Shown: one piece after another, positions 4,515 to 61,191 of the stretch
How positions within the stretch are numbered: position 1 is the stretch's first letter
Layout of the letters: the number at the start of each line of letters is the position of its first letter
Assembly (NCBI GenBank): GCA_963969345.1
Contig: OZ017769.1
Span: 10,729,725 to 10,793,724 of the forward strand
Direction of reading: 5' to 3'
From: Turbatrix aceti
Taxonomy: Eukaryota > Nematoda > Chromadorea > Rhabditida > Panagrolaimidae
Length of the DNA: 64,000 nucleotides
The notes under the pieces: model-generated
What the model saw: only the letters and a program-made list of their open reading frames with translations
Database searches by the model: none
What the model was told of the DNA's origin: nothing
Translations under genes and position numbers: made by a program

Positions 4515-5612
4515 TTATACATTAATTTTTATCAGACGCATAATGTCGTCATGCAGACCGAAAAAGGGACGCGGGCAAACTTTTTTGTGGGCCCGGAAGC
4601 AGTCGTTTGTTTGGCAGTTGGCGTCGCACTTCGAACAAGTTTGGAATTTGATATTGGACGAGGGTTTCGAGCAGTTGACGTCGTCCCCGGTTCGCAGACA
4701 GATTGGGCACAGGTGCTGGCAGAAATGTGGCATCGGTAAGTAGCGGAAACATTTTGGGCAAACTGAATTTTTCTAAAAAACAAATTTTAAAATTCCAGCT
4801 TTTTCAATGCATTTTTAACTCACGTTTTTGTCTTCCTTGGAAATCGGAGCGAATTTACGAACATTTGAGTCGTAAACCACAAGACAAGGGAATTTCTGCG
4901 TGTCACAGAAACCGGCATTCGTCAGAATGACCCGGAGCGAGGTGTCCAAGATAATAAAAATATCCTGATCGTAGCTCGGCAAATGAATCATGCGATTGAT
5001 GTCGGCAAGTGCCAGTGGAAATCGGGTGTTCCTATGAAATTTGGCTTGTGACCAAAGCGCAGTGGTCAATTTGTGGTATCTGCCTTCAAATTCTGTTGAC
5101 ACATACTTCATCCAGTTAGAACAAGCAGCTGCGTGGAAGAAATTCATTTTTACTGGGACAGTTTTGAAGTCGTCAGCGTATCTTTTCATGTGCTGTGCCA
5201 CCAGTTTCAGGGTTCCGACTCTGGTGCCAAATTGGCGTCCCAGGGGGCAAGATATTGGAGGTAGTTCCTTCAACTTGTCTTCGTAGTCGTGCTCGATGTT
5301 GGCGAGGCGTTCCATCCTCTCGCCTTCCAGTTTCTCGGTCAGCTTTTTCAGCCTCGCGTCGATGACAGCGTTTACTTTGTCCACCTGAGCCAGTCGTTCT
5401 ACGTTGTACGTCTCGAGCAGTTTTCGTCGTTTGATGAGAACGGCCATCTTCTCGGTAAGCGACGCGTATACTTCAGATTCCGGATTAACGGTTGTCATTT
5501 GGCCTGAAAATACATATTTTCATATATCAGCACGTATCAAAAACCTGCACTTACCATAGAGGTCCGCAATTGTGTCCTTAACGTTCTGGAGAGACGGAAC
5601 AAGCTTCGACAT
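4515..5612 (-). CDS. Coiled-coil / core / Cys-rich family member A
   Basis: Three exons read on the minus strand: 5612-5555 (58 nt), 5503-4824 (680 nt) and 4772-4515, giving 331 residues. The first exon starts MSKLVPSL and ends in a phase-1 intron. Residues about 20-105 are charged and heptad-like (probable coiled coil). The core holds NFFHAAACSNW, an FIILDTSLRVILTNAG strand pair and VVYDS. The last exon is a Cys/His module: CPKC, then HFCQ, CPICLRTGDD, CSKC, C, C-x3-H-x4-C. The third acceptor was chosen because only it keeps the CPKC frame. No signal peptide or membrane segment is visible. It is closest in layout to gene B, whose second exon has the same length. Function unknown; the Cys-rich end probably binds zinc. 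Confidence 0.85.
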
Positions 5613-6721
5613 TGCAGCGATCGGGAAAAAACAAAACAGAATTTCACAGAAAAGATACGATTCAACAAAAAACAGAAAAGGTATGGGATTGTTTTGCAGA
5701 AATCTCCAATAAAAAAGCCTGTGAAAGTTTTCGTTTCAGGATATGCAGGTACGGTATTTTTCTTAAAAACGCGCAGGCATGTGAATTCGAAAACAACAGC
5801 CTAGGTGTAGCCCATTTCGTAGTTCTGAACAGGAACCGAATTGGAACGGAACCGAAACAGACAACGCTGCATGCAAGCAAAAGCAGTTTAGTGACTAATC
5901 GTCGCAGCATTATGCTGGGTAACATAATTTATATTATACTTCGCCGACGACAGTTTTGTTCAATTCCCTTTTCCGCTGGCAAATCTATTTTTCGGCCCCT
6001 CCAAACCAGGGTGGCGAAGAGGGGATTCCCATGGGAGTCCCATGGGAAATATCCCGGGAATTATCCCGGGATTCCCATCTATCACGGGATAATTCCCCAC
6101 GGAATTTTGAAAATGCGCGATCCCGCCTAAAATATCACCGTTATTTTACGCAGGAGCGTGCTTTTTTCTTTCAAATTAGGTAAATGATTTTATTTTCATT
6201 GTTAATTTTATTACATTAATAAAATAAGTGTGTTTTTGGATATCTTTTTTGTATGAACATGTACTTTTTTAAACGTACCAAAAAATACCCCCGGGGACTC
6301 CCATGGGAATCCCATGGGATAATTCCCCTATTTCTAATTCCCATGGGAGTTTCGCCACCCTGCTCCAAACCCCCGAATCAAATCCAACAATTGTATGCGT
6401 CATTCATCGATAATCAACATCATCATCTCGCAAAGAGAAGAGAAAAAAGTGGTAGACGTAAATGTTCGGCAAGCAAAACATTTACGTCCGAAACAAAAAA
6501 AACAGTAGATGAATTAAAAAAAAAGACAACAAAATAGGATAAACTTGGAGATCGCAGAGTGCAAAGCACGCGCAGACAAAGAGGGGTGTGGTACGGAAAA
6601 TGTGGAACTCGCTGTCGAATGAGAAAGAGGGAAGAATTGAAATCGTCGACAGGAGCAGAGAGCGGGCATAGGTGCATGCCACCATCAGTCATTTGAAATT
6701 GTTTGCCGCTGCCTTGCCTTG
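5613..6721. other. Intergenic stretch between family gene A and hnRNP Q/R gene
   Basis: This holds the 5' flank of gene A and the 3' flank of the hnRNP gene. The only clear structure is the hAT-type MITE at 6007-6362. I see no convincing coding exon in the rest. Confidence 0.5.
6007..6362. mobile_element. hAT-type MITE with perfect 8-bp target duplication
   Basis: The ends are perfect 12-base inverted repeats, CAGGGTGGCGAA at 6007-6018 and TTCGCCACCCTG at 6351-6362. They are flanked on both sides by the same 8 bases, CTCCAAAC (5999-6006 and 6363-6370). The CAGGG-type end and the 8-bp duplication are the hallmarks of hAT elements. The 356-bp interior has no transposase and is packed with small palindromes such as CCCATGGG and CCCGGG, so it should fold strongly. 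Confidence 0.92.
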
Positions 6722-9700: not shown

Positions 9701-9804
9701 ACGACAGGTTTAACGTCGGATTCCTCCATCGCAGCGTCGCTGGCGGGCTTAATATCTGTTTCTGTGGTTTCAGACTTGACAGTGGTCATTTCGACGTCTG
9801 CCAT
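6722..9804 (-). CDS. SYNCRIP/HNRNPR: hnRNP Q/R-type RNA-binding protein (SYNCRIP family)
   Basis: Seven minus-strand exons fit in phase: 9804-9703, 9429-8935, 8692-8516, 8171-8036, 7803-7442, 7393-6977 and 6922-6722, giving 629 residues, close to the family length. An acidic N-terminal unit (residues about 35-165) is the domain typical of hnRNP Q/R. Three RRMs follow: RRM1 begins VYIGQI with RGYAFLVY, RRM2 has RLFIGNI with RGFCFVDF, RRM3 has VLYVKNL with DYAFVHFK. The tail is Gly/Tyr/Pro-rich and then RGG-rich, ending near KRPGD. Known family members bind mRNA in nucleus and cytoplasm and act in splicing, stability and translation. The two small acidic N-terminal exons contain EGEGEGEG simple repeats. 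Confidence 0.96.
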
Positions 9805-10702: not shown

Positions 10703-11826
10703 CTAAGCTTCAATACTTTTGATTAGCTCCACGATGTCATCATGAATCCGAGAAACAGGACGAGGACAGATTTCTTGATGAGCCCGGAAACACTCTTCGG
10801 TCTCACAAATGGTGTTGCACTTTGGACAAATTGCAAATTCGGATTCAATATCTGGTTTTGAGCATTCAATGTCGTCGCCGGTTCGCAGACAGATGAGGCA
10901 CTGACGCCGACGGTCACAGGAGTGCGGATATGGCTGGTAGAATAAACATTTTCGGCAAAATAATTTGCCCTAAAAATATATAATTTACGTTTATTTTTTT
11001 AAATATAAAAAATTAACGTAATTCAAATCCGACTGGAACTCACATTTTTGGTATCTTTTGGAATCGGGGAAAATTTGTGGGTACTGGGATCGTAAATTAC
11101 GAGATACGGAAAATCCTGTGTTTTACTGTACCCAGCGTTCGTCAGAATGACTCGAAGCGAGGGGTCCAGGATGACGAACAAATGTTTATCGTAGCCCGGC
11201 AGGTGAATGATACGGTCGATATTGGCCAGTGTCAGGGGGTAGTCAATATCGCTTGGAAGCTCGGCTTTCAACCACAATTCGTTGATCAAATCGTCGTATT
11301 GACCTTCAAAACTTGTGGATACGTATTTGCACCAATTAGAGCAAGCAGCCGCGTGGAAAAAGTTTTTTTCTTCCCGGAGAGTTTTGAAGTCGTCAGAATA
11401 TCTTTTCATGTGTTGGGCCACCAATTTGAGAGTTCCGACCCTGGTGCTGAATTCGCGTTCGATCGAACAGGTGATCGGAGGCAGATGCTTTGTCTTGTCC
11501 TCATAGGCGTCCTCGATCTTGGCCAGGCGCTGCTTTCTCTCGTCTTCCAGTTGGTCGATAACTTTTTTCAGCCTCGCGTCGATGTCTGCGTTGACGTCGT
11601 CGACTTCGGCGATCCGTCCCACGTTGTAGACCTCCAATTCATCTTTTCTGGCCAGAAGAGAATTTATTTCTCGGATATACGCGGCGTAAATCGGGGAATC
11701 GAGATCAAAGTTTGTCATTCGCCCTGAAATTTAATTTTTGTACACTTTCAAAAAAATCTGCTGCTTACCGTGAAGATCGGCAATTGCGTCTTTCACGTAT
11801 TGCAGAGATGGACCGAGCTTTGGCAT
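10703..11826 (-). CDS. Coiled-coil / core / Cys-rich family member B
   Basis: Exons 11826-11769 (58 nt), 11723-11044 (680 nt) and 10969-10703 (267 nt) encode 334 residues. The exon lengths and intron phases match gene A, and the first exon reads MPKLGPSLQ. The coiled-coil segment (about 20-105) ends at LPPIT. The core has NFFHAAACSNWCKY, YPLTLANIDRIIHLPGY, FVILDPSLRVILTNAG and LVIYD. The last exon has CRKC, HSCDRRRQCLICLRTGDD, CPKC, C, C-x3-H-x3-C and ends DDIVELIKSIEA. It is clearly a paralogue of gene A and looks intact. Probable zinc-binding protein of unknown role, with no secretion or membrane signal. Confidence 0.87.
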
Positions 11827-23538: not shown

Positions 23539-25013
23539 TCACTTTGTGGTTCTTTCTGACAAAGCGGCTTGACTGTGTAGCAGCAGTTCTACGAAGTTAG
23601 GGGGCAAGTCAGGATCGTGCTCTTGAAGAGCACGTTCACAGTCCGCGGCGAGGTCTTGCACTGAAAATAAAATGCATTGCACATTTTTTAAAGTCATGAT
23701 TCTTACCCGTAGGCTTGTTATTCAGATAAACAATATGGGTATGAAGGGCATCCAGAGAAAGCTCAAACAACGAAGTGAGCAACAAGCCATGAAGACCATC
23801 GTCGTGTACTTTAGAAATAGTTTGCCCTTCGTGACTCGCCTGGGCCACACGCACGTGTCTTTCATAGCATTCCTTGGTTTGGCAGAAGGCATTACACTTG
23901 GGACAAATGATGGCTTCTGATTCCGGGGATGGCTTGAAGCAACGAAAGTCATCGCTTTCACGCAAGCAAATCGGGCACTGCCGGGAACAATTGTGACGTC
24001 TAAGATTGAAACGTACGCAATAGGCGCACATTTTTTCATTCTGAAATAAACGAATTTTTAAACAATTTAAAGATTGCGTATTGTTAAATTAATCAAGCTT
24101 ACAAATTCCGTCCAATGTGAAAGAGGTGCAAAGCGCTTTGTTTCAGAATTATAAATTAATAAATATGTATAACATGTTTCTGACAAACGCTCTGGAAGAT
24201 TGGTCATTATAATGCGAAGTGCAGTGTCGTAAATAATAAAAACTTGGTCTTCGTCATCAGAATCAGCATGTCGCAATGAATGAATTATCCGATCGATGTC
24301 AATTAGCGATAACGGATATTCAACGTCGGGCTGTATTTTTGAGTAAAACAGTAGCTCGTTGGCATGGTCATCAATATAATGTAAATACTTCGTAGACACG
24401 TATAACTCATATTGAGAGCATGCAGCAGCGTGGAAAAAGTTTTTTTCTACAGAAACATTGTTAAATTGATTCAAATACTTTTTGCAGTATTGACGAGCTA
24501 TGGAAACGGTGTATGATTTTAAATTTACTCGATTGGGAGTGTTTGTTTCTGAAAGACACATTGGGAGTCCAATTTGGGAATTTTGTTGAAACTAAAAAAT
24601 ACACACTTTTTACAATCCTGGATTTTATTTGATCTGAAGGAGTCGGAAGCATCGATAATAAGTCTTCAATTTCTTTTTCATTGGCTTTGAAGCGCTCTGC
24701 TCGCTTGTTTTCTAATTCTTTATTGTTTTCGGGTTTAATTCTTATTTCGTCGTCGATATCGGCATGAATTTTTTTCTTTCTTGTTTTCAAAACTATTTCA
24801 TACTTTTTCAAAAAAGAAATTCTAGTTTCAAGAACTTTGGTTTTTTCACGCAGTTCATAGTACAAATCCGTATCTTTTTCCGCAAATTCAAAACATCCTG
24901 AAAATTGTTTTATAAACGTTGTTTTTAAACTTTTTTAAATGAAAAAAACAATTACTCTGATAGACTTTAAGTGTGGTGTTAAATCTAGTGATTTCATTGC
25001 GGATAAAATCCAT
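23539..25013 (-). CDS. Coiled-coil / core / Cys-rich family member C, with C-terminal extension
   Basis: Five exons: 25013-24956 (58 nt), 24897-24607, 24548-24103, 24040-23707 and 23660-23539, giving 416 residues. It starts MDFIRNEITRF and has a Lys/Glu-rich coiled coil. Unlike A and B, an extra phase-1 intron separates coiled coil from core. The core has EKNFFHAAACSQY, YPLSLIDIDRIIHSLRH, FIIYDTALRIIMTNLPE and LLIYNSETKRFAPLS. The Cys module reads CAYC, HNCSRQCPICLRESDDFRCFK, CPKC, C, C-x3-H. A further module follows, ending in DCERALQE and a Leu-rich helix. The same ending appears in D and E. The two-exon tail sets this subgroup apart. Confidence 0.84.
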
Positions 25014-25411: not shown

Positions 25412-27395
25412 TTAATTTCGGGATGTTGACGGCTGCGCATCATTGAATATGGATTTATTAATGTCTTGAAGTTCCTGTTGAAGAGCCGTGATTTTGCCCA
25501 ACAAGTTTGCTTTGGAGCAAGTAAAAAGTTCTGAAAGATACGAATTGGACGTTTTACTCAAATTGTCCTGCAAAGCGCGATCGCAGCCGTCAACTAGGTT
25601 GCTTAACTGAATTATATTGATTTCCAGCAGCACTAAAAATATATTATTATTTTATTGCCAAAGGTGTGTCCGGTAATACATACATTTTTCTTTCATTTTT
25701 TCTTTTTCAGGTCGTGGCATCCTATCTAGTTCGTCCATTTTGTCGTTAAGGTCTTGCAGGGAAACATCGAAAAGCGAAGCAACCAACAAAGAATAGAGAA
25801 CACTGTCTTCTTGTATTTTAGAAATGTTTTGTTCTGTATCATTGGCGTGTACTACACGTAAATGGGTGACGTAGCACGCTTTGGTTTGACAGAAAGCATT
25901 GCACTTTTTGCAAATGAAGGGTTCTGATTTTGGGGATCGCTTGAAACATCGAAAACTATTGCTTTTACGCAGGCAAATCGGACACTGACGGTTGCATCGA
26001 TGAAATAATTTAAAACGCTGGCATTTGGGACACATAGCTTCGAACTAAAACAAGAAAACTTATTAGTCAAAGTAAAAAAAGTTATTATATACTTCGTCGG
26101 CAAATTCAGAGAGTGGTGCAAAATGCTTAGTTTTGGCATCATAAATTAATACATATTTGTAACATGTTTCTGACAGATGTTCTGGTAGATTTGTCAAGAT
26201 AATGCGAAGTGAAGTGTCGAAAATAATAAAAACCTCACTTGAGCCATTGGGATCAGGTTGCTGTAATGAGTGAATTATCCGATCGACGTCAGTTAAGGAT
26301 AATGGATAATGCGTCTTTGGCGGTAGTTTTGCTTTAAAAAGTAGCTCGTTGGTAAGAGTTTCATAGCGATCTTCGTAATCTGTGCAAAAGTATATCCCGT
26401 AATGGGAACATGCAGCAGCGTGAAAAAAGTTTTTCTCAATCGAAACTTCTTTATATTGCTTCAAATACTTAATGACGTATTGAAGTGTGAAAGTGACGGC
26501 GAATTTTGAAGTTTCTAAAAAAAAGTTTGTTTATTAGAGACGTAAGAATTTAGGAACGTTAGAATTACAATATTTACGTTTGGAGCGATATACCTTTTGT
26601 TATTTCATTACGTAGTGTAGCAATTCCAAAATCATTAAGACTTGGAGCCATATTTATAACGGTGGCAATATCATTTTTATAATCAGTTAACAGCTTTATT
26701 TGTTCACTGTCTAACTGTTTGTTGTTTTCGGATTCTGATTGCTCGTTGAAGTCGTCGAGTATATCTGACAGTTCGTTGTATATTTCTATGCCCGATTTTT
26801 CGCTTTTATAACAATCTGAAAATCATAGATTACACAGTAAATATGTTTCAACCAATTGACGACGCCCTCTTCGTGCAATCTCGATACTCATCACTGTCTC
26901 TCTAATTTTGTAATGAGTAATTATGCACGAGTAAGAGTAATAAAGTAAAGTAAAAAGTAAACTATGTTTCAACCAACAACATACTTTTTGGAACACTGCT
27001 TCGTAAATTATTTACGTTAAAAATAGAGAGACTCGGAAGCTGGGATACAACGTTTTGAAATTCCATTTCAGTGTCAGCAAGAAACGTTTTTCGTTTATTT
27101 TTTAATTGCGCTTCTGTTTCGGTTTCAGCTTTCTTTTCAATTTGCGTTGAAGCGTAGATTTTTTTTCTCCGGGTTTCCAAAACTATTTGATACTTTTTTA
27201 AAAAATACTTTCGATGTTTCAAAAAGCGAATTTTTTCGAGCAGTTCATTTTCTAAGTCAGATCCTTTATCTGCATATTCAAAACAACCTGAAAACTGATT
27301 ACATAAACATATTGGCTGCGAGAAAAATGTTACTTACTTTGTAAGTCTGCAATTTTATCACTGACCTCAGTGAATCCGCGTGTTATTGCTTCCAT
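25412..27395 (-). CDS. Coiled-coil / core / Cys-rich family member D, longest, with a duplicated coiled-coil exon
   Basis: Six exons: 27395-27338 (58 nt), 27287-26985, 26815-26594, 26514-26093, 26044-25684 and 25632-25412, giving 528 residues. Exon 2 begins CFEYADKGSDLENELLEK and ends LPSLSIFNVNNLRSSV. Exon 3 begins CYKSEKSGIEIYNELSD and ends APSLNDFGIATLRNEI. Both start after a phase-1 intron and look like a degenerate tandem copy. The core has EKNFFHAAACSHY, DVDRIIHSLQ and FIIFDTSLRIILTNLPEHL. The Cys module has CPKC, HRCNRQCPICLRKSNSFRCFK, CKKC, C, C. The C-terminal module has GCDRALQD and a long helix, ending STSRN. The intron at 26816-26984 holds a retroposon-like insert. Confidence 0.84.
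26856..26962. mobile_element. Short retroposon-like insert with 14-bp target duplication
   Basis: The 107-base insert starts TTGACGACGCCCTCTTCGTG and ends in an AGTAA-rich tail. It is flanked by the same 14 bases, TATGTTTCAACCAA, at 26842-26855 and 26963-26976. A related, unflanked sequence lies at about 32547-32650 in the same orientation. Tail and duplication length suggest LINE-mediated insertion (SINE or truncated LINE). Confidence 0.75.
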
Positions 27396-27618: not shown

Positions 27619-29693
27619 TTAGACGGCATTTATTTGTATACGGGGAAGTGGTTGAACATAATTTTTAAGCGAATCTTCTTTGGCGCATGCATTCCACGCT
27701 ACTTCCTGCATTTTACTAAATTCAATTTCTATTTCATTAATCAGCGGCATCATATCTTTCATAAAATATCTTTCAGTTCTCTCAACTATCAAGCCGGCTC
27801 GTATAAGATTTTGCACAGATTCCGGAACCGATGTCAGTACTTCGTCCAGCGATTTCTGTTTGTCATTCCGGAGATCTTGACAGAATTCGGGTTTTAGTTT
27901 TTTTACGATGAGTTCAAGCACTATAATGCAGTAAGCCCAAACGTCCACTCTAGAGTCGCATAGTTTGTCGTTCATAAATTCAGGAGCCGCATAACATTTA
28001 GTATACTGCGCATCTTGTAACATACAAGGTTCCGAGCCGTTGAGCCACTGAATGCTATCAATATCACATATTTTAGCGTTAAAATGACTATCCAAGATAA
28101 CATTAGCTAGTTTCATGTCGCAGTGTACAATGTTGTTTCCGTGCAGATAAATGAGTGCGGCAGCCATATTCTTTATCCACCTCACAAAAAACGATTTTTT
28201 GGGTCGTTGTCTGCTAATGTATGAAAGCAAATTTCCGTTTTCTAAAGCAAAAAAAATATTTTATTTGGAAGGAACTTGAACTTACTGCAAAATTCGGTAG
28301 CGATATAAAAAATATTGAAATTATTTTCATCTGTGGCAATATCACGGACAATCATAATGTAATCGTTGTCGATGCCGGTTAATTTTTTTTTAAGAGTTCC
28401 AACTTCTCCATTGAACTGCCGAGCATCCAAGACCTTGATTGCAACTTTGAGGTTAAGTCTTTTGTATGTTCCTTGAATCCAAATCTTTCCAAAATGTCCT
28501 GAGTTGTATGTTTTAGCATCAATAGTAGCAGCTAATGTGCCATCAGCTGTCAAAGCAGAACAGTACGGAAGTGATTTTTTGTTGTCATTATACTCTATTT
28601 CAAATGCTTTGCGCATAAGGCTGTAAAATGACTTGAAATCTGTTTGGATAGAATCCGTGCATTCAGCAATAATAAGTGAAACAACATTTTGTACTTCTGA
28701 ACTGCGTTTCATGAAAAAAGAATCTTTAATACAAGGTATAATTATGTTCATCACAACAGTAGATTTTAAAACGGAAATTCCTGTTATTTTTTGCATTATA
28801 TAATATAATATCAGTTTTTGAAAATCGTAATAATCGAATTTGGCATATTGTATCTTAAATGATTTTACAATCAATAATAATGTGCTGTAAAAACTTACAG
28901 ACATGAAATTTACAGTTGTGTTTTCTACAATGGCTCCAAACCAATCAATTACGTTGACGGATTCATTTCTGCAAAATTACTATAATTAACATTTTATGGT
29001 AATTAACATTTTATGGTTATCAAAACACTTACAGTTTGTCTAGGTGATTAAACATAACAGACTCCTTGGCAGTATATTTATACGTTTCTAAATCAAGATT
29101 TACTGCGCGATTTGGTTGATACGCACCCGGATTAGCTACTATCCACAATTGAAAATTTCGTGTTGTCAATTCAGGTACGGCTTTGTTTAACATATCAAAT
29201 GTTTTGGTAACCATTTGATTTATTCCTTCGGCTGTTTTTTGATTGGAACTTCCAAGACAATAAAGCAAATATTTTTGATTTTCTGTTTTTGGCAGTACAC
29301 TTGGATACAGAGGGACATAATCACTAAAATTGTAACACATTGTTAAAGAAGTTTTATCATATACGTAAGTGCCTGAAATACGTAAGTAAATGTTTTTAGC
29401 ATGTTTAACTTACTAAGCTGATTTTGGATTGGTTCGTTCCAGAAAAACCGTAGCTACGCTGTTTTCATTGACCAAAGCTCTTGAACCAATTGCAATTGAG
29501 TCCTTGAAACTTAAATCACCCCACACAAAAAACTTTTTATAAAGATCTTTTGTACTGAGAAGAGGGTAAATCCAATCCTTCGGCTTTTTAGATTTGTCTG
29601 AAAAGCCGTAACAGATTTTTAGATTACACATGCGTAAAAAAAATTTGAGAACTTTTTTAACTCACCGAACTGAAATTCCTTGATGTCAAACAT
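27619..29693 (-). CDS. Protein kinase-like gene K1 with an unrecognised N-terminal half
   Basis: Six exons: 29693-29666, 29597-29414, 29323-29033, 28968-28899, 28853-28286 and 28241-27619, giving 587 residues. Residues about 1-300 match no domain I know. They include WIYPLLS, KYLLYCLGSS and FQLWIVANPGAYQP. The kinase domain follows: a Gly loop (YNSGHFGKIW), the VAIK lysine, a hinge near FYIATEFC, HCDMKLANVILD in place of HRDxKxxN, DID in place of DFG, CYAAPEF (APE) and DSRVDVWAY. The catalytic Asp, Lys and Asn are kept, so residual activity is possible, although the DFG glycine is lost. No TM helix or signal peptide is clear. It is one of a tandem pair with K2, inside the family cluster. Confidence 0.85.
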
Positions 29694-30088
29694 TTTTATG
29701 CACACACGCCTTTGTCGTCCGCCAGGATAATCAGAAAAATAGGTTTTTACTATGTTTTGCAAGAAAAAAAGCTTATTGGGCAACACTGCTTTCGATTAAC
29801 AGAAATTGAGAAGCTGAAAATATGCTGTTATCATAAAAAAATGCAGTGCAATGCAATGCTGTCGCAGACAAAACAAAAGGTAAGCACTGATTAATTTTAT
29901 GTTGATGTCAACGTAAAAACATTAATCGACATGAAAATCATGGGCTGTTAGAGCCTTTGCAAAAATAATAAAGTGCATCACAGAAATTTTTTTCAGACTT
30001 TTCATTTTTATGTCATAAATTTCGATATTATGCAGTTTTATCTTTAAATCGATATTTTTTAAAATGACGGCGGACATTGAGCATTCCC

Positions 30089-32713: not shown

Positions 32714-33336
32714 TTAACTAAATATAGTCTCATCTGGTAGCTTATCTTTAACTTGAGACAGAAGTTCTACAATATGAGGGGGCAATTTGGGATCTTGAAG
32801 AGCACGATCGCAATAAGCCTGAATGCTGCTCGAGGGAATGTGCTGAATTTCCTGCTCTGAAAAACAAATTGGCATGCAACTTTTCGAACAAACGACACAC
32901 CTTTTATAGTCGGGGATTGCAGTTCACCAACGCTGAACTCAGAGAGATTGGGAAGCTTGGATACAATGTTTTCAATTTCTTTTTCTTGTGTATTGTTGGC
33001 TAGCTGCTCTTTTCGTTGACGCTCTAATTGTTCTATTTCTTTTTTATTTTCGGGCTTTGTTTTTTTAATTCTTGCATCGATGTTAGTGTTAATCGTTTTC
33101 ACCCGTGTTTCCAGAATTAATTTAAATTTTTTTAGAAAATTTTTTCTTTCTTTTAGAATTGTTAACTTTTCATTCATTTTATTGTACAAATCCGTTTCTT
33201 TTTCTGCAGAACTCAAATCATCTAAAAGTTGCTAAATTTTTACATAAAATTGACGACAAATAAATTAAAGCAACTTACTTTGCAATTTTTCAATTTTTTG
33301 GATGACGATATTGATTTCGTTTTTGATAAATTCCAT
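32714..33336 (-). CDS. Coiled-coil / core / Cys-rich family member E, internally deleted
   Basis: Three exons: 33336-33279 (58 nt), 33221-32901 and 32856-32714, giving 173 residues. It starts MEFIKNEIN and continues with the Lys/Glu-rich coiled coil (NDLSSAEKETDLYNKMNEK, ending LPNLSEFSVGELQSP). The next exon encodes the C-terminal module seen in C and D (AYCDRALQD, LPPHIVELL), with no core and no Cys module between. All splice phases agree and the frame is open to a TAA followed at once by AATAAA signals. So it reads as a compact gene, not an obvious wreck. It could act as a coiled-coil partner of its relatives; this is inference. Confidence 0.75.
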
Positions 33337-34722: not shown

Positions 34723-36023
34723 TTATGATGCCGATACATGCAGACTTTTTATTAAGTGAACAATGTTGTTGTGAATTTTTTGATTTGGTCGGTGCCCGTT
34801 GCAACTCTCACTGTGTTGTTCGTTGTAGCATGTTTCGTTCTGACAAAACACACCGCAAAATTCACATTTCTTTAATTCCGATTCTGGACTTTCAGGTTTA
34901 AAACACTGAAAGTCATTGTCTTTGCGAAGGCAAATGGGACAGTGACGTTCGCAATCATGATATAATTCGTAGCTCAAACACTTTGGACACACTTCCTTTT
35001 CAAACTAAAACAAAAAATTGTATAATATTTTAAGATGTAATTTATAAAGCAGCCTGCAGTTAAAAACGTTTACAAAAAAAATCTCGGCTGAGCCAGAAAA
35101 CTTCGAAAAAAAACGGGATTAAAAAATTTCCATTTTTATAGAATTCAAAACCCAAAAATATCTAAATTTTTGAATATGTTAGCAGAAAACATTTGAACTA
35201 GCTTACATTGTTTGTGATGCGGGGAATAGGAACAAAGTTGTGTGATACATTATCGTAAACCAATACGTAGATGAAAACCAACGATGGCAACGACTCTGGA
35301 AGATTTGTCAAGATCACTCGTAGTGCCGTATCCAGTATGATAAAAATTTTATACGAATCACGGGACTGGGTAAAGTGAGGGTTGTGAATAATCTTATCGA
35401 CGTCTTCAATTGAAAGAGATTGCTTGTTCGGCGACAATTTTGCCAGGGACAACAACTCGTTGGCATAAGAATCATAGCGGTCTTCAAATTCATTGCCAAT
35501 AAATATACAATAGTGCGAATGTGCAGCTGCTTGGAAGAAGTTGCTATACGTGAGGTCTTTATTCATGTTTTTAGAGTTTTTTAAAAACGTAAAGTACTCC
35601 TCGCCCCGGCGTAGGATCTCACGAATTCGACCGTCGCGGTATTTGAACGCAGCTTGTCAACGAATATATCAGAGATATCCGGTAGTCTGAATGCAATGCC
35701 TTCGATTTCTTTTTCTACGTCTTGAATACTTTTATCTTTCAAAACACCACTTTTGATTTTCTCTCCTTGAATACTTTTATCTTTCAAAATCTCTATCCGG
35801 TTCTTTTTCACATTTTCAAATATTTCAAAAAGAAAATTTCGCTCAAGGAAAACATTTTCGGCACTCTTCATGTTGTCATACTGTTCAGCATAGTTGCCGT
35901 TTTGCAGCGTAATCAAATCAGCTAAAAGATATTTAAAATTACCGTACATAAAAAGGTAAAACACAACAAACCTTGAAATTTTCCAAGTTCATCGGATATA
36001 ACTTTGATTTCATCTTTGATCAT
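34723..36023 (-). pseudogene. Coiled-coil / core / Cys-rich family member F, frame broken
   Basis: Exons 36023-35972 (52 nt), 35921-35207 and 35004-34723 follow the A/B/G layout. Exon 2 is one base short of the length needed. The coiled-coil half and the core half lie in different frames, meeting near 35615-35645. Downstream the core (NFFQAAAHSHY, FIILDTALRVILTNLPE) and the Cys exon (CPKC, CERHCPICLRKDNDFQCFK, CEFC, C, C) are intact. In the core motif the usual Cys is His. LKDKSIQ occurs twice, from a short DNA duplication at about 35725-35790. It is either a recent pseudogene or a sequence error. Confidence 0.75.
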
Positions 36024-36821: not shown

Positions 36822-37969
36822 CTACAAAACATCCGAATCTGTTTTCAGATATAAGTTAACAATGTCATCATGAATTTTTTGATTTGTCTGTGAGCATATT
36901 TTGCTATGATCATTCAGGCAATCATTGTTCTGACAAAATGCATTGCATTTTTCACATTTTGTTGGTTTCGAATTCGGAGATGACTTGAAGCAGACGAAAT
37001 CGTTGCCTGTGCGTAAACAAATTGGACACCGGCGTTCACAACTATGGAATAGCTCAAAACGGACGCACCTAGGACACATCTCGTAGTTCTGAAAAAAACG
37101 GGTTGCAAAATAATAAGGGATGAAAAAAATAAAAGTGAACATACATTTTTTGAATATCTTGAAACAGGTACAAATGTTTTTGAATCTGAATCGTAGATTA
37201 CTACGTAACTGAAGCACATAGTTGGCAGATGTTTTGGGAGATTGGTCAAAATTACCCGCAGTTTGGTATCCAGAACAATAAAAATATCACCCATAGTTTC
37301 GATATGTCGAAATGAGTGAATCAACACGTAAACCTCATCAATAGTTGGATTTTCTTGCGATAGCTTAGTTTTAAACTCTTCGGTGCGCTTGACAATGCGA
37401 TCTGCATTTTCTGAAGTCACGAGTTCTCCAAAGTGAGAACATGCAGCTGCGTGAAAAAAATTATTTTTTTCTGCAATTTCCTTGAATTTCTCAAAATACG
37501 TTTTGCTATAATCCTTCACCAAAGCAACAGTTTGGGCATCGGAATGAAAGCTATCGTCGCCGATTTTAGAGACATCTGGTAGCTTGAGTGCAAATGCTTC
37601 AATTTCGACGTTTTTTTGTTCTGTATGAAAAACATTCAGCGTTCGCATGCTTTCAATTTGTTGTCTTTCCATTTCATCGAGCTTTTCATCTTTTAGTTTT
37701 TCTTTGGCATCTTCGATGATTTTTTCCAAGCGTCCTGTCATTAGCATTTTGAATTTTTCTAAAAGAAATTTTCGTTCTAGGAGAACTTGCTTTCCATCTG
37801 ATAAGTTGTTTCGCTGATCAGGTGTTAGTTGGGGGTTTTTAAAATATTCTGAAAGTTGTGAAACAGTATGTGTATGTAAATTAGTACCACAAAAAATAAT
37901 AATCAACTTACGATCCACTAATTTAATCTTTCCGTCGATAAACTTGAGTCTGGCTTCTATGTTTGGCAT
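36822..37969 (-). CDS. Coiled-coil / core / Cys-rich family member G
   Basis: Exons 37969-37912 (58 nt), 37848-37145 and 37088-36822 (267 nt) encode 342 residues. The start MPNIEARLKF was chosen because it gives the 58-nt first exon and phase-1 intron seen in its relatives. The open frame itself runs further upstream. A long Lys/Glu/Arg coiled coil spans about 45-125. The core has EKNNFFHAAACSHF, DVYVLIHSFRH-like spacing (VYVLIHSFRH), FIVLDTKLRVILTNLPKHL and VVIYDSDSKTFVPVS. The Cys exon has CPRC, HSCERRCPICLRTGNDFVCFK, CEKC, C, C-x3-H-x3-C. It has no C-terminal extension, so it groups with A, B and F. It looks intact. Confidence 0.85.
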
Positions 37970-39176
37970 AACTGGAGATTGCAATCTGTAAAACACGAAT
38001 TGTGAGTGATTATGGATATCCATTGCTTTTGAATTGCGGATCGGATCATGCGTGGCAAATTGGATTAACCAAAGCTTCGGATGACGGATAGAGTTTTCCA
38101 ATATTATTACGTATTTACAAGATTTTATCAAAGATGTAATAAAATTATTGCGCGCGCACAACATTTTAAAATTTATGTGGCGAAAGAATTCAAAAATTTA
38201 AAAAGCAAATCTCAAATGATTCGTATCGCGAAATTCGATTTGTTCACCGGATAACGGATCGGATCATCTCACAAGAAATTTCGGGATTGATAATTCTGCA
38301 CTGAAATTGAAGTGTCTTGTGCGAGACGATTTTGCTGACGTTGCCTTACGGCTTGCGTACAAGAAACAGCGTAAAAATGAAGTTCACACAACACGTGACA
38401 TAAATTCATTTGATATGAGCATAACATAACGTCACGCGGCAAGTTTGGGGAGTAAATTTTTGTCATGTTAGAAACATAACGAATGGTTGAAATCGAGTCG
38501 GCTGTAGGATTGACAGGAAACAAAAGTGACTGCAGTTGTATGTACAAAGCTAACAAGTTAACGCAGCGGTTAATTATTGTGACTAACTAGACTGCGACCT
38601 GCGATGTTTCTTCCGGTGGGTTAGTCTGTGTGAAAAAAGCTATCCCACAAATTTTTTTGTACTTGCAACACTGTTGCAAATGTGAGAGGTGTGAACCATC
38701 TCTTTTCGTATGTAGCTGCTCTTTTTGTTTCTCTCCGTTTAGCAGTCTGAAGATCAAGAGACGTTGCACAAAATCAATAAACATGATTGTGTACATAAGT
38801 ATTTTCTTCCTTCACATGTTAGTTCCCAGCCGTGCATCGGCGTCAATATCCGTCAACGGCCTTTTTTCTGGCAACGGTTTGAACTTGTCCCCAGACTCTC
38901 TGGGGCCCAGAGTACCAATATTTCAAACAACCAGGACCAGTTTTAGAAATAAAGGGTATTGACTTCGGAAATGGACAGTGATAAAATATTTATAAATATT
39001 ATAATAATTATATAGAGTTATTATAATTATTATAATATTTATAGCCATCTGAAAAATGAGTCTGAAAAAAAAATCAATATATTGTCAACTTTGATTTTGT
39101 GCCGCAAAAAAAGTTTCATAAAATACGGAACCAAAGCAAATCTGATTGGTAGTACATATTTGTAGCTACTTGTTCA

Positions 39177-47361: not shown

Positions 47362-49010
47362 TTAACAGACACTCTGTGAGCCGATTTAGGATCGAGGACA
47401 CATCATTTTCACACTTTCAAATGTTTTGAGTCAGAGTTGTAGGCCTTCGGGGGAAATGTCCAAAGCCGCGATATTTTATTTTATAAAATTCGGATTCACG
47501 AGATTCGGCTTCAGAAGTGTTTTTCATAAACAATAATGCCCCGTGCTACGTTGGTCATGAACAATTCTGAAAAAATTAATACAGGGGTTTCTGAGGACGG
47601 CGGATCCAATGACATATTCAGAATTTTTTTTCAGTTACGGTAATTATCGATTTTTTGATATCATACGTTTTCAAACCGCTATCATATTCGGATCTCAAAC
47701 TTAAGCGGTAATTCGATAAGCCTATCTTCTTCCCCGTTGTTTTTTGTATCGGAAAAAGTAAAATACAAAAAAAAATCGCGTGCCCAAGGTTGTCATAAAT
47801 TTTAATTTATGCTCCAGACTCGACACCGAAGCCCTGCGCGCAACGTGCAAGCATGATTTTGCGCTGCTGCACACGCGTATTGACCTTTATTTTTTAGACG
47901 CATGCCTAACTTATTATAAAAATCGTTTTTGGAACCATTCAATAGGTGTGCCAAGGCGGGAAGGTGTACAGTAGTCTTTTTTCCAAGCATCACCTGTAAA
48001 ATGCCTGAGGCTATTAGCCATAAACATTTTAACAAAAATGACCTATTCTATCTTTTAGAGAATTCAATTCTCTATGGTGTATAAAATTTTCAGATTTTTA
48101 CCTTTATTTTTGGGTTCGGTACATTAATTTAAAAAACATACACCAAGTTTAACCTTCATTTTTCTGCCGACGCTTCTCTTAAGAAATAAAAATCTCATAA
48201 TTTGAAGTCAAATTTAGAACATGTTGGGCAAATTAAGCTACAGTATCCAAAAATAACGGTAAAAATCTGAAAATTTCATGCTCCATAGAGAATTGAATTC
48301 TCTAAAAGATAGAATAGGTCATTTTTGTTAAAATGTTCATGGCTAATAGCCTCAGGCATTTTACAGGTAAAGCTTGGAAAAAAGACTACTGTACACCTTC
48401 CCGCCTTGGCACACCTATTGAATGGTTCCAAAAACGATTTTTATAATAAGCTAGGCATGTGTCTAAAAAATAAAGGTCAATACGCGTGTGCAGCAGCGCA
48501 AAATCATGCGTGCACGTTGCGCGCAGGGCTTCGGTGTCGAGTCTGGAGCATAAATTAAAATTTATGACAACCTTGGGCACGCGATTTTTTTTTGTATTTT
48601 ACTTTTTCCGATACAAAAAACAACGGGGAAGAAGATAGGCTTATCGAATTACCGCTTAAGTTTGAGATCCGAATATGATAGCGGTTTGAAAACGTATGAT
48701 ATGAAAAAATCGATAATTACCGTAACTGAAAAAAAATTCTGAATATGTCATTGGATCCGCCGTCCTCAGAAACCCCTGTATTAATTTTTTCAGAATTGTT
48801 CATGACCAACGTAGCACAGGGCATTATTGTTTATGAAAAACACTTCTGAAGCCGAATCTCGTGAATCCGAATTTTATAAAATAAAATATCGCGGCTTTGG
48901 ACCTTTCCCGCTGAAGGCCTACAACTCTGACTCAAAACATTTGAAAGTGTCAAAATGATGTGTCCTTCTCCCCACCTTGGTCCTAAATCGGCTCGCAGAG
49001 TGTCTGTTAA
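47362..49010. mobile_element. Long foldback element 1 flanked by TTAA
   Basis: The arms 47366-48080 and about 48277-49006 are near-identical inverted copies around a spacer of about 200 bases. The tips read CAGACACTCTGTGAGCCG and its complement (one mismatch), flanked by TTAA at 47362-47365 and 49007-49010. The interior has no transposase. Each arm contains the same 77-codon open stretch, which is a by-product of the palindrome. TTAA duplication is typical of piggyBac-type insertion. Confidence 0.85.
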
Positions 49011-49428
49011 CTTTTTTGGTTGAATGGATGGGAAGATACACTTTTGGGCAGTTTTTATCCCCTAATCACAGCAAATTCTAATTTTTGCTTCAATGCAAAT
49101 TATTTTTATAAAAAAAATTATTTGTTTTTATATTTCATTTTGGTTTGGTTTAACGACGGTAAAAATTAGAAGAATATCGCTTAGCCAGTTTTGGTTTGCA
49201 AACGACAAAGCAAGCACACGGGTATCTGGTTATCGGTCGATTGCGTAGCGTAAGCTCTTCTTCTCCTTCTGTGATGCGTGTTGGACCAAAAAATGAAGGA
49301 GTTAGAGTAATAGATACAAGATGTCATCTCACTCCTCCTCCCTCTTTCCCATCCCAGGCAGACAGATCCTACGCGGTCGCGCGTGCACGTCCAGACTTCT
49401 TGCAAAAAAAACGAAGAGAGAAGACTTG

Positions 49429-50790
49429 TTAAAAGACACTCTGTGAGCCGATTTAGTATCGACGACCCCGTGATTTTACAACCCCCAAATATTTTGTGCC
49501 AAAGTTGTAGGTGGCCGGGGGGGAGGAACAGAAATAAATATAAAAAAAATTCTAGAAGCCGGATTCTGAAGATACGGCTTCTGGAAGTTTTTGACGTCAA
49601 ATTTTCAACTTGCTTCAAAAAATCAGATTTTTGGTTTACAGGGGTATCTTGGCACGAGAAATCGATTGGGGTACTCAGATTTTTTTAAAAACTTCCGATT
49701 TTTTTGGAATTATCGATTTTTGCATTTTTCTGGGTTTTTACCGTCACTTTTTGCCTATAGCTTCCGTATTTCTACTAGGAGCTCAGCGAGAGTGGTTACA
49801 TCTTGAAGCCCATTCATTTCTGAATCAGAGACAAAAAATGCAGAAAAATGTGGTGACTATTCGGTGACCATCCCCGGGCATTTATCGCGCGCACTTGACC
49901 AAAAAACGGTGAAAACAGCCTCAACTGACAAAAAGTAGTGCGCGCGCGCGTAAAAGGAGTCATGTTTAAAAAAATGCCCTGAAGCCAATTTTTGTTTTTT
50001 TTGTCAGCGGTCACCTGGGTAGGTTTGGGCATGTCCCAAAGATTGCTCTAAACTATTTGGCTGTTTAATCCGACTATATTACGCATTGTCATAGGCATTT
50101 AAAAAACATGAAAATTTAGAATGCCGTAACTCATTGCAAAATAATACCATATAAGGCATAAGTGGCTGAAAGCAATCTTTGGGACATGCCCAAACTTACA
50201 CAGGTGACCGCTGACAAAAAAAACAAAAATTGGCTTCAGGGCATGTTTTTAAACATGACTCCTTTTACGCGCGCGCGCGCTTCTTTTTGTCAGTTCACAC
50301 CGTTTTTTGTCAAGTGCGCGCGATAAATGCCAGGGGATGGTCACCGAATAGTCACCACTTTTTTCTGAATTTTTTATCACTGATTCAGAAATGAATGGGC
50401 TTCAAGATGTAACTACCCTCGCTGAGCTCCTAGTAGAAATACGGAAGCTACAGGCAAAAAGTGACGGTAAAAACCCAGAAAAATGCAAAAATCCATAATT
50501 CCAAAAAAATCAGAAGCTTTTAAAAAAATCTGAGTATCCCAATCGATTTTTCGTGCCAATATACCCCTGTATACCAAAAATCAGATTTTTTGAAACGTGT
50601 TGAAAATTTAACGTCGGAATCCTTCAGACGCCGTAACTCCAGAATCCGGCTTTTGGAATTTTTTTTATATTGTTTTCTGTTTCTCCCCCCCGGTGGCCTA
50701 CAACTTTGGCACAAAATATTTGGGGGTTGTAAAAACACGGGGTCGCGCCTTTCACCTTGTTCCTAAATCGGCTCACAGAGTGCGTCTTAA
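49429..50790. mobile_element. Long foldback element 2 flanked by TTAA, same tips as element 1
   Basis: TTAA at 49429-49432 and 50787-50790 bound a nearly complete palindrome with arms of about 49433-50050 and 50165-50786. The tips AAGACACTCTGTGAGCCG and GACGCACTCTGTGAGCCG match element 1, but the internal sequence differs. It contains alternating CG/GC runs (TGCGCGCGCGCG near 49939 and its mirror near 50270). No coding capacity is visible. Confidence 0.82.
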
Positions 50791-52748: not shown

Positions 52749-52854
52749 ACCACGATCAATGTCCCAAATGTTCCCAGGTGAAAGAAGATGTCAGAAAAAA
52801 GAAATTCCGCGACAGAGGAGAAAAAGGATAACAGCTGAATATTTTACTTTCAAA

Positions 52855-55489: not shown

Positions 55490-56128
55490 TTGTCTGGAGC
55501 AAAGGTAGGCGTGCTCGGGTTTTTTGGTTCAAAAAGTTAAAGGATGGTTTTTTTAGGAAAACTTTGAACTAAACGGGTCGCACAGTCAACGGGTATTATG
55601 GAACTTATTTTCACTCACGTCAGCTCTACATTTTAACAAACATAAACTAAAAGTTGTATTTTTTTTCCATTTTTCTCATTGATATATTTTTACACTGTGT
55701 TGTAGATTTTTATCGTGTTTGTGCATTTTTGAATTGAATTCTGTATAAACTTTTACAATATGAAAAAAACATGAAATTTATTAAGGTTTATCACGGTGTG
55801 CGAATTTTATTCAGGGATGTTTTTCGTCAGAGAAGACAAAAAAAACAGTGACAATGATTGATAAGTATTTTTAAATCAGTGTGCAAGGACGTGAAAAAAA
55901 CGACACGGTTAAACAGATGACAGATATGACATACGCGTCCTTGAAGTTTTACTGAAAAGATGCTCAGATTTCGATATTGTGATCACATACGTGTGCAAAA
56001 CGCTGCTTTGTATTGCGATATTTTATTTTTATTTTATTTAAATCACCGCACCTCACTCATATCAGTGGTTCTGCTTGGTCACAGTCTAAATATTTCACGC
56101 CCTGCTACATCAGTTCGCACTTTGAAAA
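55490..56128. other. Intergenic region, no gene seen
   Basis: AT-rich sequence between the MANSC-type gene and fragment H. I see no repeats or coding exons in it. Confidence 0.45.
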
Positions 56129-56753
56129 ATGTCGTCGTTGCCGTCCAACCTTGCGTCAATCAATAAAGCTATCGAAAGAATCAGAGGTACTACATTTTTG
56201 TATATCTGATACCCTTTTTTGGTATTTTTTTGAATGATTTGATATGCATTAGAAAAAGGTATCATGATGTGATACCAGATTATTTCAAAAATAAGCTGAT
56301 AATATGATATTAGCTTGGTTTTATCATAATAAAAACGATTTTGACCATCATGATACCATGTTGATTGTTCAAATTTCAACCTGACTAATAAGATCCTGAA
56401 CATTTACAGATTCCATGGCAAAAACAGCTGTAGATTCTGATGATTTCGAAAAATGCCACGAAACGATGATCACTTTGATGAAACGAAAAAAGCTACTCAC
56501 TACGTATTCCTCCGAAATCCTGAAACGCGTCGATGAAATCAATCAGAGAATTGATAGCCGTGTCAACGAATTGGAAGACGAACGGAAAGAGCTGTTAGCA
56601 AATGTTTATCACGAATACGATGACAAGCTGGCCAAATTGCCTAAAATTGATGAGGTTGAGGTTAAAGAAGACTTCTTAATTGGAAACGCTGTTCCAAAAG
56701 TGGACGCTGGCTGTGAGGTATCGCCTACTTTTTTTTGGAAAATCCCGCCCTGA
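56129..56753 (+). pseudogene. Family fragment H: head of a coiled-coil / Cys-rich family gene
   Basis: Exon 56129-56186 is exactly 58 nt (MSSLPSNLASINKAIERIR) with a phase-1 intron. Exon 56410-56753 encodes the coiled-coil segment (MITLMKRKKLL, RVNELEDERKELLANVYHEY, LAKLPKI), then loses similarity and stops. It is of A/B type by the RKKLLTTY and DKLAKLP motifs. No core or Cys exon follows. It could still make a protein of about 133 residues. Confidence 0.68.
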
Positions 56754-58373: not shown

Positions 58374-60172
58374 ATGGCTGAACGATACGAAAATATTCTG
58401 GCTTTTTGGTGGGTTTTATAACTTCTTTGGAGTTTCGGGAGTTGAATGAGTTTTTTTCGTTAAAGGATTCTGGGGCTGTGTAACAACTTTGCCTACAGCG
58501 TGATGCTCTCCGCAGCCAAGGATATCCTGGAGGTGGGTCACGATCACACGCTGAACGGCACGGTGCCGTCCCTGCCTCCTGACGATGGAAGGGCATGTCC
58601 GGAGAATTCGACGTCGATCCACTGCTCTCCGATCTCCACTGGATCCATCCTGCTAGCTGACATTATGCCGTCGTTTTTTCTTCAACTTTTTGCGCCATTT
58701 TTCTTTCATCAAATCCATTACAGGTTTTTTTTGAGGGTGTTTTGGAGGGGGTAAAAAGTTTTTTTTAGAATCCGGCATGTCATGGTTGTCTGCCTTCAAA
58801 TTGCGGCATTTGTCACCGTATCAATGAGTCCGTCACTTTTTGTTGGCATTGGCGGAGTCGTACTTGCTAGCTTGGGTTCTGGACTCGGTGAAGTCACTCT
58901 GCTGTCGTTGGCTTCGCATTTTCATGGGTTTGTTTTTTTTCGTTCTGGAACGATTTTTTTTTCTAATACGAAAATTTTTTGGTACAAAACATTGTTTTAC
59001 GAACGAAATTTTATCTCGACGCGAAAATAGATTTCTTAGAACGAAAACTTTCTTAACACGAAAATTTATTTTATATTTTCTTGAAAAGCATTTTTTTAAA
59101 TGATATCATTTTTTTGTAAAATATATTTTGTCTGGACACGAAAAAATGTTTCAACGCGCATGTTACGGTTTTTAGCGACGTAATCGACGCCTGGTCCTCC
59201 GGAACCGGTGGAGCCGGTCTCTTCGCTGCCCTCACCTATGCCATCCTGACAGATCGTCGACTCATCGGTCTCACACCCCAGAACACTCTCCTCTGCATGC
59301 TCGTCGTTCCGGCAGTTTTCTTTCTGACCTACTTTTACCTCCTAAAAATCCCGGCCGGCACTCCCGGATCACCCGGTCAGGTTCGGCGTCACCGAGAATC
59401 TGAAGAAGATAACCTTCTGCAGTCCGATGAATCCCCACCAACCCCAGAAAACGCCCCTCTCCCAGTCGAGACCCCGACCAGGCATCTGACTTTCGCAGAC
59501 CGTCTCCAGATGACCAAGCCTCTGTTCAAGTTCATGATCCCCCTCGCGCTGGTCTACTTCGCGGAGTATTTCATCAACCAGGGCCTCGTCGAGCTCATCG
59601 TCTTCGACTGCGCGCACGGCTTTGGCCTCGGACAGTTCAGCCAGTACAGGTGGTACCAGGTGACCTACCAGCTGGGCGTCTTCGTCTCCAGGTCGTCGTC
59701 GAGAATCGTTCCTCTCCATTCGAAGGCTCTTCCCGTGGTTGCTGGACTTCAGATCATCAATGCAGTGGTTTTTTACCAGGAAGCCATTTGGTCTTTTCTA
59801 CCGCATATCGCGATTGTTTTTGGGTTCATATTTTTCGAAGGCCTTCTCGGGGGCTCCGCCTACGTCAATACCTTCAGGGCTGTTCATCGATCGGTGGGTT
59901 CCTAAAACAGTTTTTATTGGGATAATTTTTTTCTTGCTTGAAAAATTTAATGCGAAAAAAGGGAAAAAAACAAGCAAAATTAAGGACAAAAATTTTTTCT
60001 TGACGTTTGTTTTTGTTTTTGATCAGCGTTTTTTTTTCAGATATCGGAAACGGCACGCGAATTCAGCATGTCATTTGTGGCTCTCGCAAATTCGACGGGT
60101 ATCGTAGCGGCTGGCTTCCTTGCTATACCTATTCACAATTTTATATGCTCCAAACGTGGTATCACTTTTTGA
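58374..60172 (+). CDS. CLN3: CLN3 (battenin) orthologue, lysosomal membrane protein
   Basis: Exons 58374-58408, 58466-58723, 58769-58927, 59176-59893 and 60041-60172 fit in phase and give 433 residues, near the usual length of about 440. Landmarks: FWILGLCNNFAYSVMLSAAK at the first TM helix, a luminal loop with NGT and NST glycosylation sites, GSGLGEVTLLSL, SSGTGGAGLFAALTY, a charged central loop, LVYFAEYFINQGLVE, QYRWYQVTYQLGVFVSRSS, FFEGLLGGSAYVNTF and AREFSMSF near the end. In animals CLN3 sits in lysosomes and is needed for export of glycerophosphodiesters. The C-terminus (ICSKRGITF) lacks the CaaX-like prenylation motif of the vertebrate protein. Confidence 0.96.
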
Positions 60173-60924
60173 CTTGTTTCAAATTGCTGGATATTTTGTG
60201 ATAAATGATTTCATCGAATGGCATTGAGGTTTTTCACGAAATCGGGCAATTTTTGTTAAACGTCAATACTTTTGATGAACGTCGCTGATTATCGTCTCTG
60301 CCCACGTTTGTTGTCTGTCCGTCGGTGCGCGTGCCGACCGAGACGCTATCGTGACTACTGTGCTGCTTACTGTACCTGCAAACAACATTTTTTACAAAAT
60401 AATTGAATCTGAATCTTGAAGTTGCAAAAAGTCGGGCGAAGAAAACGACTAATGACAAAAAAATTCAACGCTTGAATCAAAGTAATAATTTAAAATTTAA
60501 AATAATTAAAAAAAAATTTTTTGTTAATTTTTAAAAAATTTTTTTTGCCAAACTTTACTTTGTGAAAGTAAATGTATCTGTACAGTTACAGTTAGTCTTT
60601 TTTGCTCTACAGCATAATTAATTTCACTCAAATGTGCACTATTTTACGAATATTTTTTACAACATCCGAGGTTTATTTAGGATAGGATCATCCGAAATAT
60701 CAGATCGGATCGTCCGAATCTTCGGATAACGGATGAAGCTTTATCGGCGGCGTGTGCCAATCAGGCTTTTTTGATAACCGGGGTATTCATTCTGCCTTTT
60801 TTACCGAAAATAAATAACATGCCAACCAGAGAAAAAAACCACACCATCGCCATCGCCAACAAACAGATTAGCCGTAACAATGGACAAATGTGGGTCGGGA
60901 AAACATTTCACAGAAACACACAAA
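60173..60924. other. Intergenic region, no gene seen
   Basis: It contains A/T-rich runs and a GGATC/ATCCGA-rich stretch at 60675-60735. A similar motif cluster occurs near 38030-38275, which may be a dispersed repeat. No exon is supported. Confidence 0.4.
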
Positions 60925-61191
60925 TCAAAATTCCAAATCAAGGCTTTGGAGGAGTTGTAGAATGTCGTCACGAAGTCCAGAAACCGGACAGGAGCAAACA
61001 TCTTGGTGGGCCCGGAAGCATTCGGCGGTGTAGCAGTAGGCGTTGCAGGTTGGGCAAATTCTCAGTTTCTGCTCAGACAGGACTTTCCGACACTTGGCGT
61101 CGTCACCGGTGCGCTGGCAAATGGGACAGGTCAGTTCGCAGACGTGGTCTTTTGGTAAGTAACGGAAACACTGCTGGCAGATGGGTTCGTA
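60925..61191 (-). pseudogene. Family fragment I: isolated Cys-rich last exon
   Basis: The 267-nt exon has the same length as the last exons of B and G. After a TTTTTAG acceptor it reads CQQC, FRYLP, CELTCPICQRTGDD, CPTC, C, C-x3-H-x3-C and ends DDILQLLQSLDLEF then TGA. FRYLP and the AHQDVC ending place it with A and B. No core or coiled-coil exon lies upstream on the minus strand. It is therefore an orphan tail. Confidence 0.72.

Follow-up and report, generated by a model that had tools for sequence, protein, structure and literature searches.

A large coil–core–cysteine gene family in the nematode Turbatrix aceti with fast-changing core patches in one subgroup

Results

Family genes in the window

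The window analysed here is a 64,000-nucleotide stretch of the Turbatrix aceti genome (C5:10,729,725-10,793,724) that lies on a chromosome arm. The genome shows its nematode character in 64 matches to the N-terminus of nematode cuticle collagens and in arrays of TTAGGC. Iterated HMMs, started from gene A and run on the window, matched the coil 7 times, the core 6 times and the Cys exon 7 times, and no match was weaker than a domain E value of 1.6e-9. These matches resolve into six genes with a core, all on the minus strand, one gene that has only the coil, and two isolated exons; the nine family members named in the first-pass annotation were thus recovered as seven genes plus two fragments.

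4515..5612, minus strand: gene A, complete, 331 aa (spliced model and HMM matches); in the spliced model, exon 1 is 5612-5555, exon 2 (coil and core) 5503-4824 and exon 3 (Cys) 4772-4515
4824..5213, minus strand: core domain of gene A (alignment to subgroups I and II)
4515..4772, minus strand: Cys module of gene A (alignment of the family's Cys positions)
10703..11826, minus strand: gene B, complete, 334 aa (spliced model and HMM matches); exons 11826-11769, 11723-11044 and 10969-10703 in the spliced model
23639..25013, minus strand: gene C (HMM matches, exon 1 located, raw sequence); exon 1 25013-24956, coil 24880-24641, core 24510-24115, Cys 24028-23789
25652..27395, minus strand: gene D (HMM matches, exon 1 located); exon 1 27395-27338, coil 27273-27028, core 26488-26108, Cys 26032-25805
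26822-26574, minus strand: second coil-like exon of gene D, between its coil and core exons (read by eye)
32767..33336, minus strand: gene F, exon 1 and coil exon only (HMM match, exon 1 located); exon 1 33336-33279, coil HMM match 33216-32944
about 34723-36000, minus strand: gene G (ORFs and HMM matches); degenerate coil ORF 35988-35584, core 35551-35222, Cys 34989-34747
about 36822-38197, minus strand: gene H (HMM matches; exon 1 not located); coil and core in one long ORF (core 37531-37157), Cys 37076-36852
56400..56753, plus strand: lone coil exon, a fragment (HMM E 1.5e-28)
60925..61191, minus strand: lone Cys exon, a fragment (HMM E 3.7e-30)

The gene structure is regular. Exon 1 could be located in window genes A, B, C, D and F, and in each of these five it is exactly 58 nt long, a 19-residue stretch plus one base; exon 2 measures 680 nt in genes A and B alike, and in gene H a 56-nt GT..AG intron separates the core from the Cys exon. 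A simple hydropathy scan of genes A and B gave no transmembrane-like stretch (maxima of 1.55 and 1.06, respectively). The second coil-like exon of gene D has no match to the coil HMM and is either an alternatively used exon or what is left of another copy. Gene F has no core or Cys match to the HMMs before the kinase gene downstream, and the lone coil exon is followed by no plus-strand core or Cys match in the window. In gene G, the coil ORF scores below the coil HMM threshold and overlaps the core ORF in a different frame, which points to a frameshift or an unusual intron.

Family size and genome-wide layout

Consensus searches of the whole genome (59.9 Mb, 28 contigs) at E ≤ 0.01 returned 126 core and 122 Cys matches before merging. 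The merged core matches define 112 distinct core loci, with 43 on C5, 42 on C1, 23 on C2, 3 on C4 and 1 on C6, so that the family extends beyond the window. In 108 of the 112 core loci a same-strand Cys module follows no more than 1.5 kb downstream, at a median gap of 81 bp. Together with the coil, core and Cys HMM matches, this bears out the three-part plan proposed from the window, and at these numbers chance is excluded as the source of a three-part family. Neighbouring core pairs less than 20 kb apart number 60, and 54 of them share a strand. Among the fetched loci, a crude intron pattern applied to 62 core-Cys pairs found both donor and acceptor in 51, and the donor-acceptor distance is 44-56 nt in 32 of these. 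Removal of near-identical or contained sequences reduced the collected family pieces from 223 to 171.

Two arrangements stand apart from this general layout. On C1, family copies at G000:C1:7790797, 7794607, 7798417 and 7802227 follow an exact 3,810-bp period, with identical scores in the first three, and read as a very recent tandem array. At L077:796-2355, a coil-core-Cys-core succession occupies one open frame, with a further Cys module downstream; its sequence marks it as a tandem in-frame duplication in which the first unit lacks the usual core/Cys intron.

The presence of broken copies raises the question of whether these loci are decaying or mobile-element-derived repeats without a host function. 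The core match is split in 13 of the 112 loci, 6 of the 15 copies of subgroup II (defined below) have split frames, orphan exons exist, and 14 of the 122 Cys modules have no core. Against this reading, intron positions are shared, 118 of 226 codons in subgroup I evolve under purifying selection, and no transposon domain of note occurs among the Pfam families listed. We consider decay a highly improbable account, and the selection on scaffold codons is what disfavours it; conserved gene structure and the purifying codons together argue for real genes. A transposon origin was likewise rejected, having no domain support among the Pfam families listed.

Conserved positions of the core and the Cys module

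The core is marked by two motifs. Each position of NFFHAAACS is kept in 45 to 62 of 64 distinct cores of at least 110 aa, and the residue before FFH is Asn in 57 of them; the motif noted in the window is therefore that of the majority of cores and is not universal. The ILTN strand fared better, as its Asn is present in 64 of 64 distinct cores.

The Cys module is more strongly constrained. An alignment of the seven window copies contains 12 invariant Cys/His columns, and across 77 distinct modules of at least 73 aa, 11 cysteines (positions 1, 4, 14, 19, 22, 31, 43, 46, 50, 55 and 63) and one histidine (position 59) are each kept in 73-77 of the 77. A thirteenth position, the His of the C-x2-C-x7-H-x-C element in the window copies, is occupied by His in 40 of the 77 modules and by Cys in 21. 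The 12 near-invariant ligands would be enough for three zinc ions, and the module probably binds zinc, judging from these residues. Among known zinc modules, RING, IBR and MYND combine Cys/His-rich spacing and a CPxC element with 8 ligands. The family module resembles them in spacing and in the CPxC element but differs in having 12 conserved ligands instead of 8, plus the further His/Cys position. Its consensus matched no Pfam family at E ≤ 10, in a search whose filters drop most matches above 0.1.

Search for relatives

Neither the 331-aa spliced model (887 candidates) nor a 107-row family alignment (6,855 candidates) has a match at E ≤ 10 among 5.8 billion proteins, in a search whose first step needs shared 5-residue words and which remote relatives could escape. 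As a control, the genome's own OTUD7-like gene gave 202 matches in the same database; the 120 listed include proteins of Onchocerca, Panagrolaimus, Ancylostoma, Cooperia and Heterodera. Since this control returns nematode orthologues, nematode proteins are present in that database.

Domain searches gave a similar picture. Every Pfam match of 8 window exons and of three family consensus sequences falls below the cut-off, including all 18 matches of the coil consensus, which we read as coiled-coil noise, and NCBIfam has none for the core or Cys consensus. When the 107 members were compared with Pfam, 79 families were weakly matched; among the 25 listed, the best E value is 0.00013 (zf-MYST, in one member), with most cut-offs not given. 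We rejected membership in the weakly matched Pfam families PML_CC, SF-assemblin and Muted. The best sequence match in the PDB is to Ikaros, with an E value of 0.0099 for the Cys profile, and others are weaker; membership was rejected here as well, as the printed alignment shares only general finger spacing. Rfam has nothing in the window at gathering thresholds. In the literature searched, no title or opening of an abstract describes the family.

These results support the earlier description of an apparently undescribed family: protein, Pfam, NCBIfam and PDB sequence searches gave no convincing match, the whole chain has no strong match to one characterised family (none at E ≤ 10), and profile searches of the core and Cys consensus separately against Pfam and NCBIfam assign no family.

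A possible OTU origin of the core

One lead concerns the core, which might be an OTU domain of the A20/OTUD7 type that has degenerated and is catalytically dead, in which case the family would consist of ubiquitin-system adaptors (pseudo-deubiquitinases). By eye, the order of motifs agrees with that of A20/OTUD7 (Cezanne) domains, as does some of the spacing. NFFHAAACS of the core corresponds to GDGNCLLHAAS of OTUD7/A20; xPLSLxDVDxxI...FVILDTSLR corresponds, at near-equal spacing, to YESLEEIHVFVL...IVVADTMLR; and YLLIYDSxSxRFxPV corresponds to SPLVLAYDxxHFSALV. The OTUD7 proteins with the highest core HMM scores are matched in one and the same segment, the best at 11.8 bits, compared with 6.4 bits for the best shuffle (among 866 scoring of 1400 made). 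Among 400 block-shuffled versions of the HMM, 1.25% match or exceed the mean of the real model and 0.5% its top-ten mean, and 12 of 61 OTUD7 proteins score above the 95th percentile of 237 other ORFs, one of which is gene G. In addition, the residue two places before the final Phe is His in 18 of the 63 cores, and a single core, that of window gene D, has a His immediately before this Phe.

Other comparisons speak against such an origin. Direct HMM-HMM alignment (hhalign) is unconvincing, with probabilities of 1.6 and 2.4% and P values of 0.032 and 0.02, and the reverse test, in which an OTUD7 HMM was compared with 80 family cores, gives no signal (mean −2.59, compared with −2.03 for reversed and −2.55 for shuffled sequences). 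Pfam finds no OTU match to the core consensus, and the core HMM gives just −0.6 bits to the OTUD7 domain of this genome and −2.8 to −3.5 to three further OTU domains. DGNC, the catalytic cysteine motif, is absent from all 96 core sequences. Nor is the catalytic histidine conserved: the residue before the final Phe in the 63 matched cores is Lys in 23, Arg in 17, Gln in 8, Thr in 4 and His in 1, with others making up the rest. Moreover, OTU was picked for testing after the resemblance had been noticed. A catalytically dead A20-type origin is thus hinted at by the motif pattern, as a lead rather than a classification, and we hold the adaptor reading built on it to be unlikely.

The same genome contains OTU domains in open frames of 389-784 aa, at G000:C8:18916, C2:2524127, C5:8296029 and C7:3134. 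Two of them have equal scores on different contigs, and these domains are possibly mobile-element OTUs.

Selection on the core, coil and Cys exon

Selection was analysed in two subgroups, whose members were picked by eye. Subgroup I comprises 18 genes and includes window genes A (as L009) and B, and subgroup II comprises 15 copies, of which 9 are intact and the 6 with split frames were left out of the codon tests. In subgroup I, the global omega on a coarse grid is 0.45 and, beside the purifying codons already mentioned, for 6 codons the posterior that beta exceeds alpha is above 0.9. These codons, at alignment positions 133, 146, 150, 153, 183 and 206, all lie in the core.

In subgroup II, pN/pS is 1.00 overall, with one window of the alignment at a pN of 0.20 and a pS of 0.04, and the excess of nonsynonymous change falls in parts of the core and at the start of the coil. 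With omega at the grid's upper limit of 1.3, the site test returned 32 codons with a posterior above 0.9, in coil and core. The fast regions of the core are three: the residues after NFFHAAACS with the following helix, the loop before FxILDTSLR, and the loop between ILTN and YxxxYDS. By alignment, the core of gene A holds these regions that evolve fast in its relatives.

Patches and scaffold were also compared by pairwise counts. In four disjoint pairs of subgroup II, the 44 codons of the three core stretches, defined after seeing the data on which they were tested, carry 81 nonsynonymous against 6.8 synonymous changes (pN/pS 3.05, p 0.0015), whereas in the same pairs pN/pS is 0.54 for the core scaffold and 0.65 for the coil. 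Diversity at the hot core codons, which were picked afterwards, is 0.42 (pi) in subgroup II compared with 0.077 for the intron and 0.078 for fourfold sites; in 14 genes of subgroup I (4 of the 18 were left out), it is 0.36 compared with 0.12 in the intron. The patches of subgroup I as a whole are not above neutrality, with a pN/pS of 0.79 in nine pairs and 0.84 in six close pairs. An excess of nonsynonymous change on a conserved scaffold is found in subgroup II, and in subgroup I at only six codons; a diversifying recognition family would show it at exposed sites. The fast-changing core patches on a conserved scaffold in close subgroup II paralogues are a new result.

The two subgroups agree in part on where change is concentrated. 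Amino-acid diversity in subgroup II is 0.66 at the columns aligned with the six codons of subgroup I and 0.15 elsewhere (permutation p 0.0002), and three of the six aligned codons exceed a posterior of 0.9 in both subgroups; the posterior test of fast sites common to both is not significant (p 0.22). Reading-frame changes occur in the fast regions, at the loop before ILDTSLR in L040 (second copy), L041 and L042 and in the earlier patches in L044, L049 and L060, hinting at indels there.

The Cys exon has little positive selection, with 2 and 0 sites in the two subgroups; for subgroup II, 9 Cys exons were used, of which one comes from a split-frame copy. This bears on the idea that the proteins are nuclear zinc-finger repressors of mobile DNA whose patches track changing DNA targets. 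The zinc-rich tail and clustered duplication would suit such repressors, as would the Cys module's weak resemblance to Ikaros/Helios fingers in the PDB. Nonetheless, few fast sites fall in the zinc module, all six of subgroup I lie in the core, and the Ikaros alignment extends no further than finger spacing, and we regard this role as very unlikely.

Paralogues also appear to be mosaic. None of 300 permutations reaches the observed sum of squared identity runs, and the maximum-run test is not significant (p 0.21); exchange among paralogues is likely on this pattern. Such recombination can inflate tree-based site tests and leaves pairwise counts unaffected. Mosaicism, tandem copies, lineage restriction and rapid change are also what one would expect of a selfish-gene family, made up of toxin-antidote or drive elements with variable patches that encode self-recognition. 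The purifying codons of subgroup I and the 99 of 112 cores in a single piece suggest instead that many copies are maintained, and the hydropathy scan shows no transmembrane-like stretch in genes A and B. A selfish family seems to us quite unlikely.

Discussion

Several known protein families share parts of this design. MATH adaptors form large lineage-specific nematode expansions and pair a conserved part with a target-binding part. TRIM/TRIM5-type proteins consist of a coil for assembly, a variable binding domain and a zinc module; the family has the same types of part in reversed order, a likeness in working for which we do not claim homology, and none of RING, B-box or SPRY is among the Pfam families listed. 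The F-box (FBA2/FTH) ubiquitin-ligase adaptors of nematodes resemble the family in combining lineage-specific expansion with a conserved part and a fast target-binding part, and in C. elegans, according to passages of PMC8665587, 73 of 95 paralogue pairs have C-terminal regions in which dN/dS peaks at more than 1.5. The family differs from F-box and MATH proteins in its architecture and zinc-rich tail. Species-specific expansion is likewise a feature of pals (ALS2CR12), with 39 genes in C. elegans and a link to the intracellular pathogen response in passages of PMC10353827, but the family here has about 110 loci and a Cys module. F-box, FTH, FBA2, MATH, BTB and ALS2CR12 are all absent from the Pfam matches of the 8 window exons and three consensus sequences, and none is among the 25 of 79 Pfam families listed for the 107 members.

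Our preferred reading, to which we give a probability of roughly 0.4, is that of a nematode-lineage-restricted family of about 110 loci that acts as a diversified intracellular recognition repertoire. The protein would stay inside the cell, where the short helix of the first exon and the coil would oligomerise it; the core would bind a changing target through its fast patches, and the zinc tail would be the invariable end, acting as an effector or binding partners. The analogy with nematode F-box proteins, pals and vertebrate TRIM proteins suggests, as the likeliest setting, defence against intracellular pathogens or against genetic parasites of other kinds. As to purpose, we infer that defence is likeliest and genetic conflict next. 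A fuller version would make the family an invertebrate intracellular recognition repertoire of more than 100 loci, whose fold is either new or diverged beyond recognition (perhaps that of an A20-type OTU domain, now dead) and whose effector module, also new, holds three zinc ions. Exchange between paralogues and selection at a few surface patches would have diversified it. That all of this holds together is doubtful.

Were the recognition reading true, the genes would constitute a large recognition-type nematode family not found described in our searches, and the prediction would be that the fast core patches make up a single binding surface. The family would then offer one more example of how intracellular recognition is diversified in animals lacking adaptive immunity, along with a new zinc module and perhaps a fold of a new kind.

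Other genes in the window

Between the family genes, on the minus strand at 27619-31882, are two tandem kinase-domain genes (Pkinase E 8.5e-24 and 9.9e-21) whose N-terminal region has no Pfam match at E ≤ 0.01. In one of them HCN and NFK, by eye, replace HRD and DFG, and this gene looks inactive. The N-terminal part has 21 exon matches in the genome, 17 of them on C5 at 10.6-10.76 Mb; judged by these matches, the kinase genes are a second local family interleaved with the coil-core-Cys family. A CLN3-like gene (59120-59905, plus strand, E 5.8e-68) lies between the two family fragments. Finally, nearly identical 81-aa ORFs in opposite orientation at 47802-48047 (minus strand) and 48313-48558 (plus strand) form an inverted repeat that is probably a mobile-element remnant, and a similar inverted pair is found at 49181-49684 and 50524-50766.
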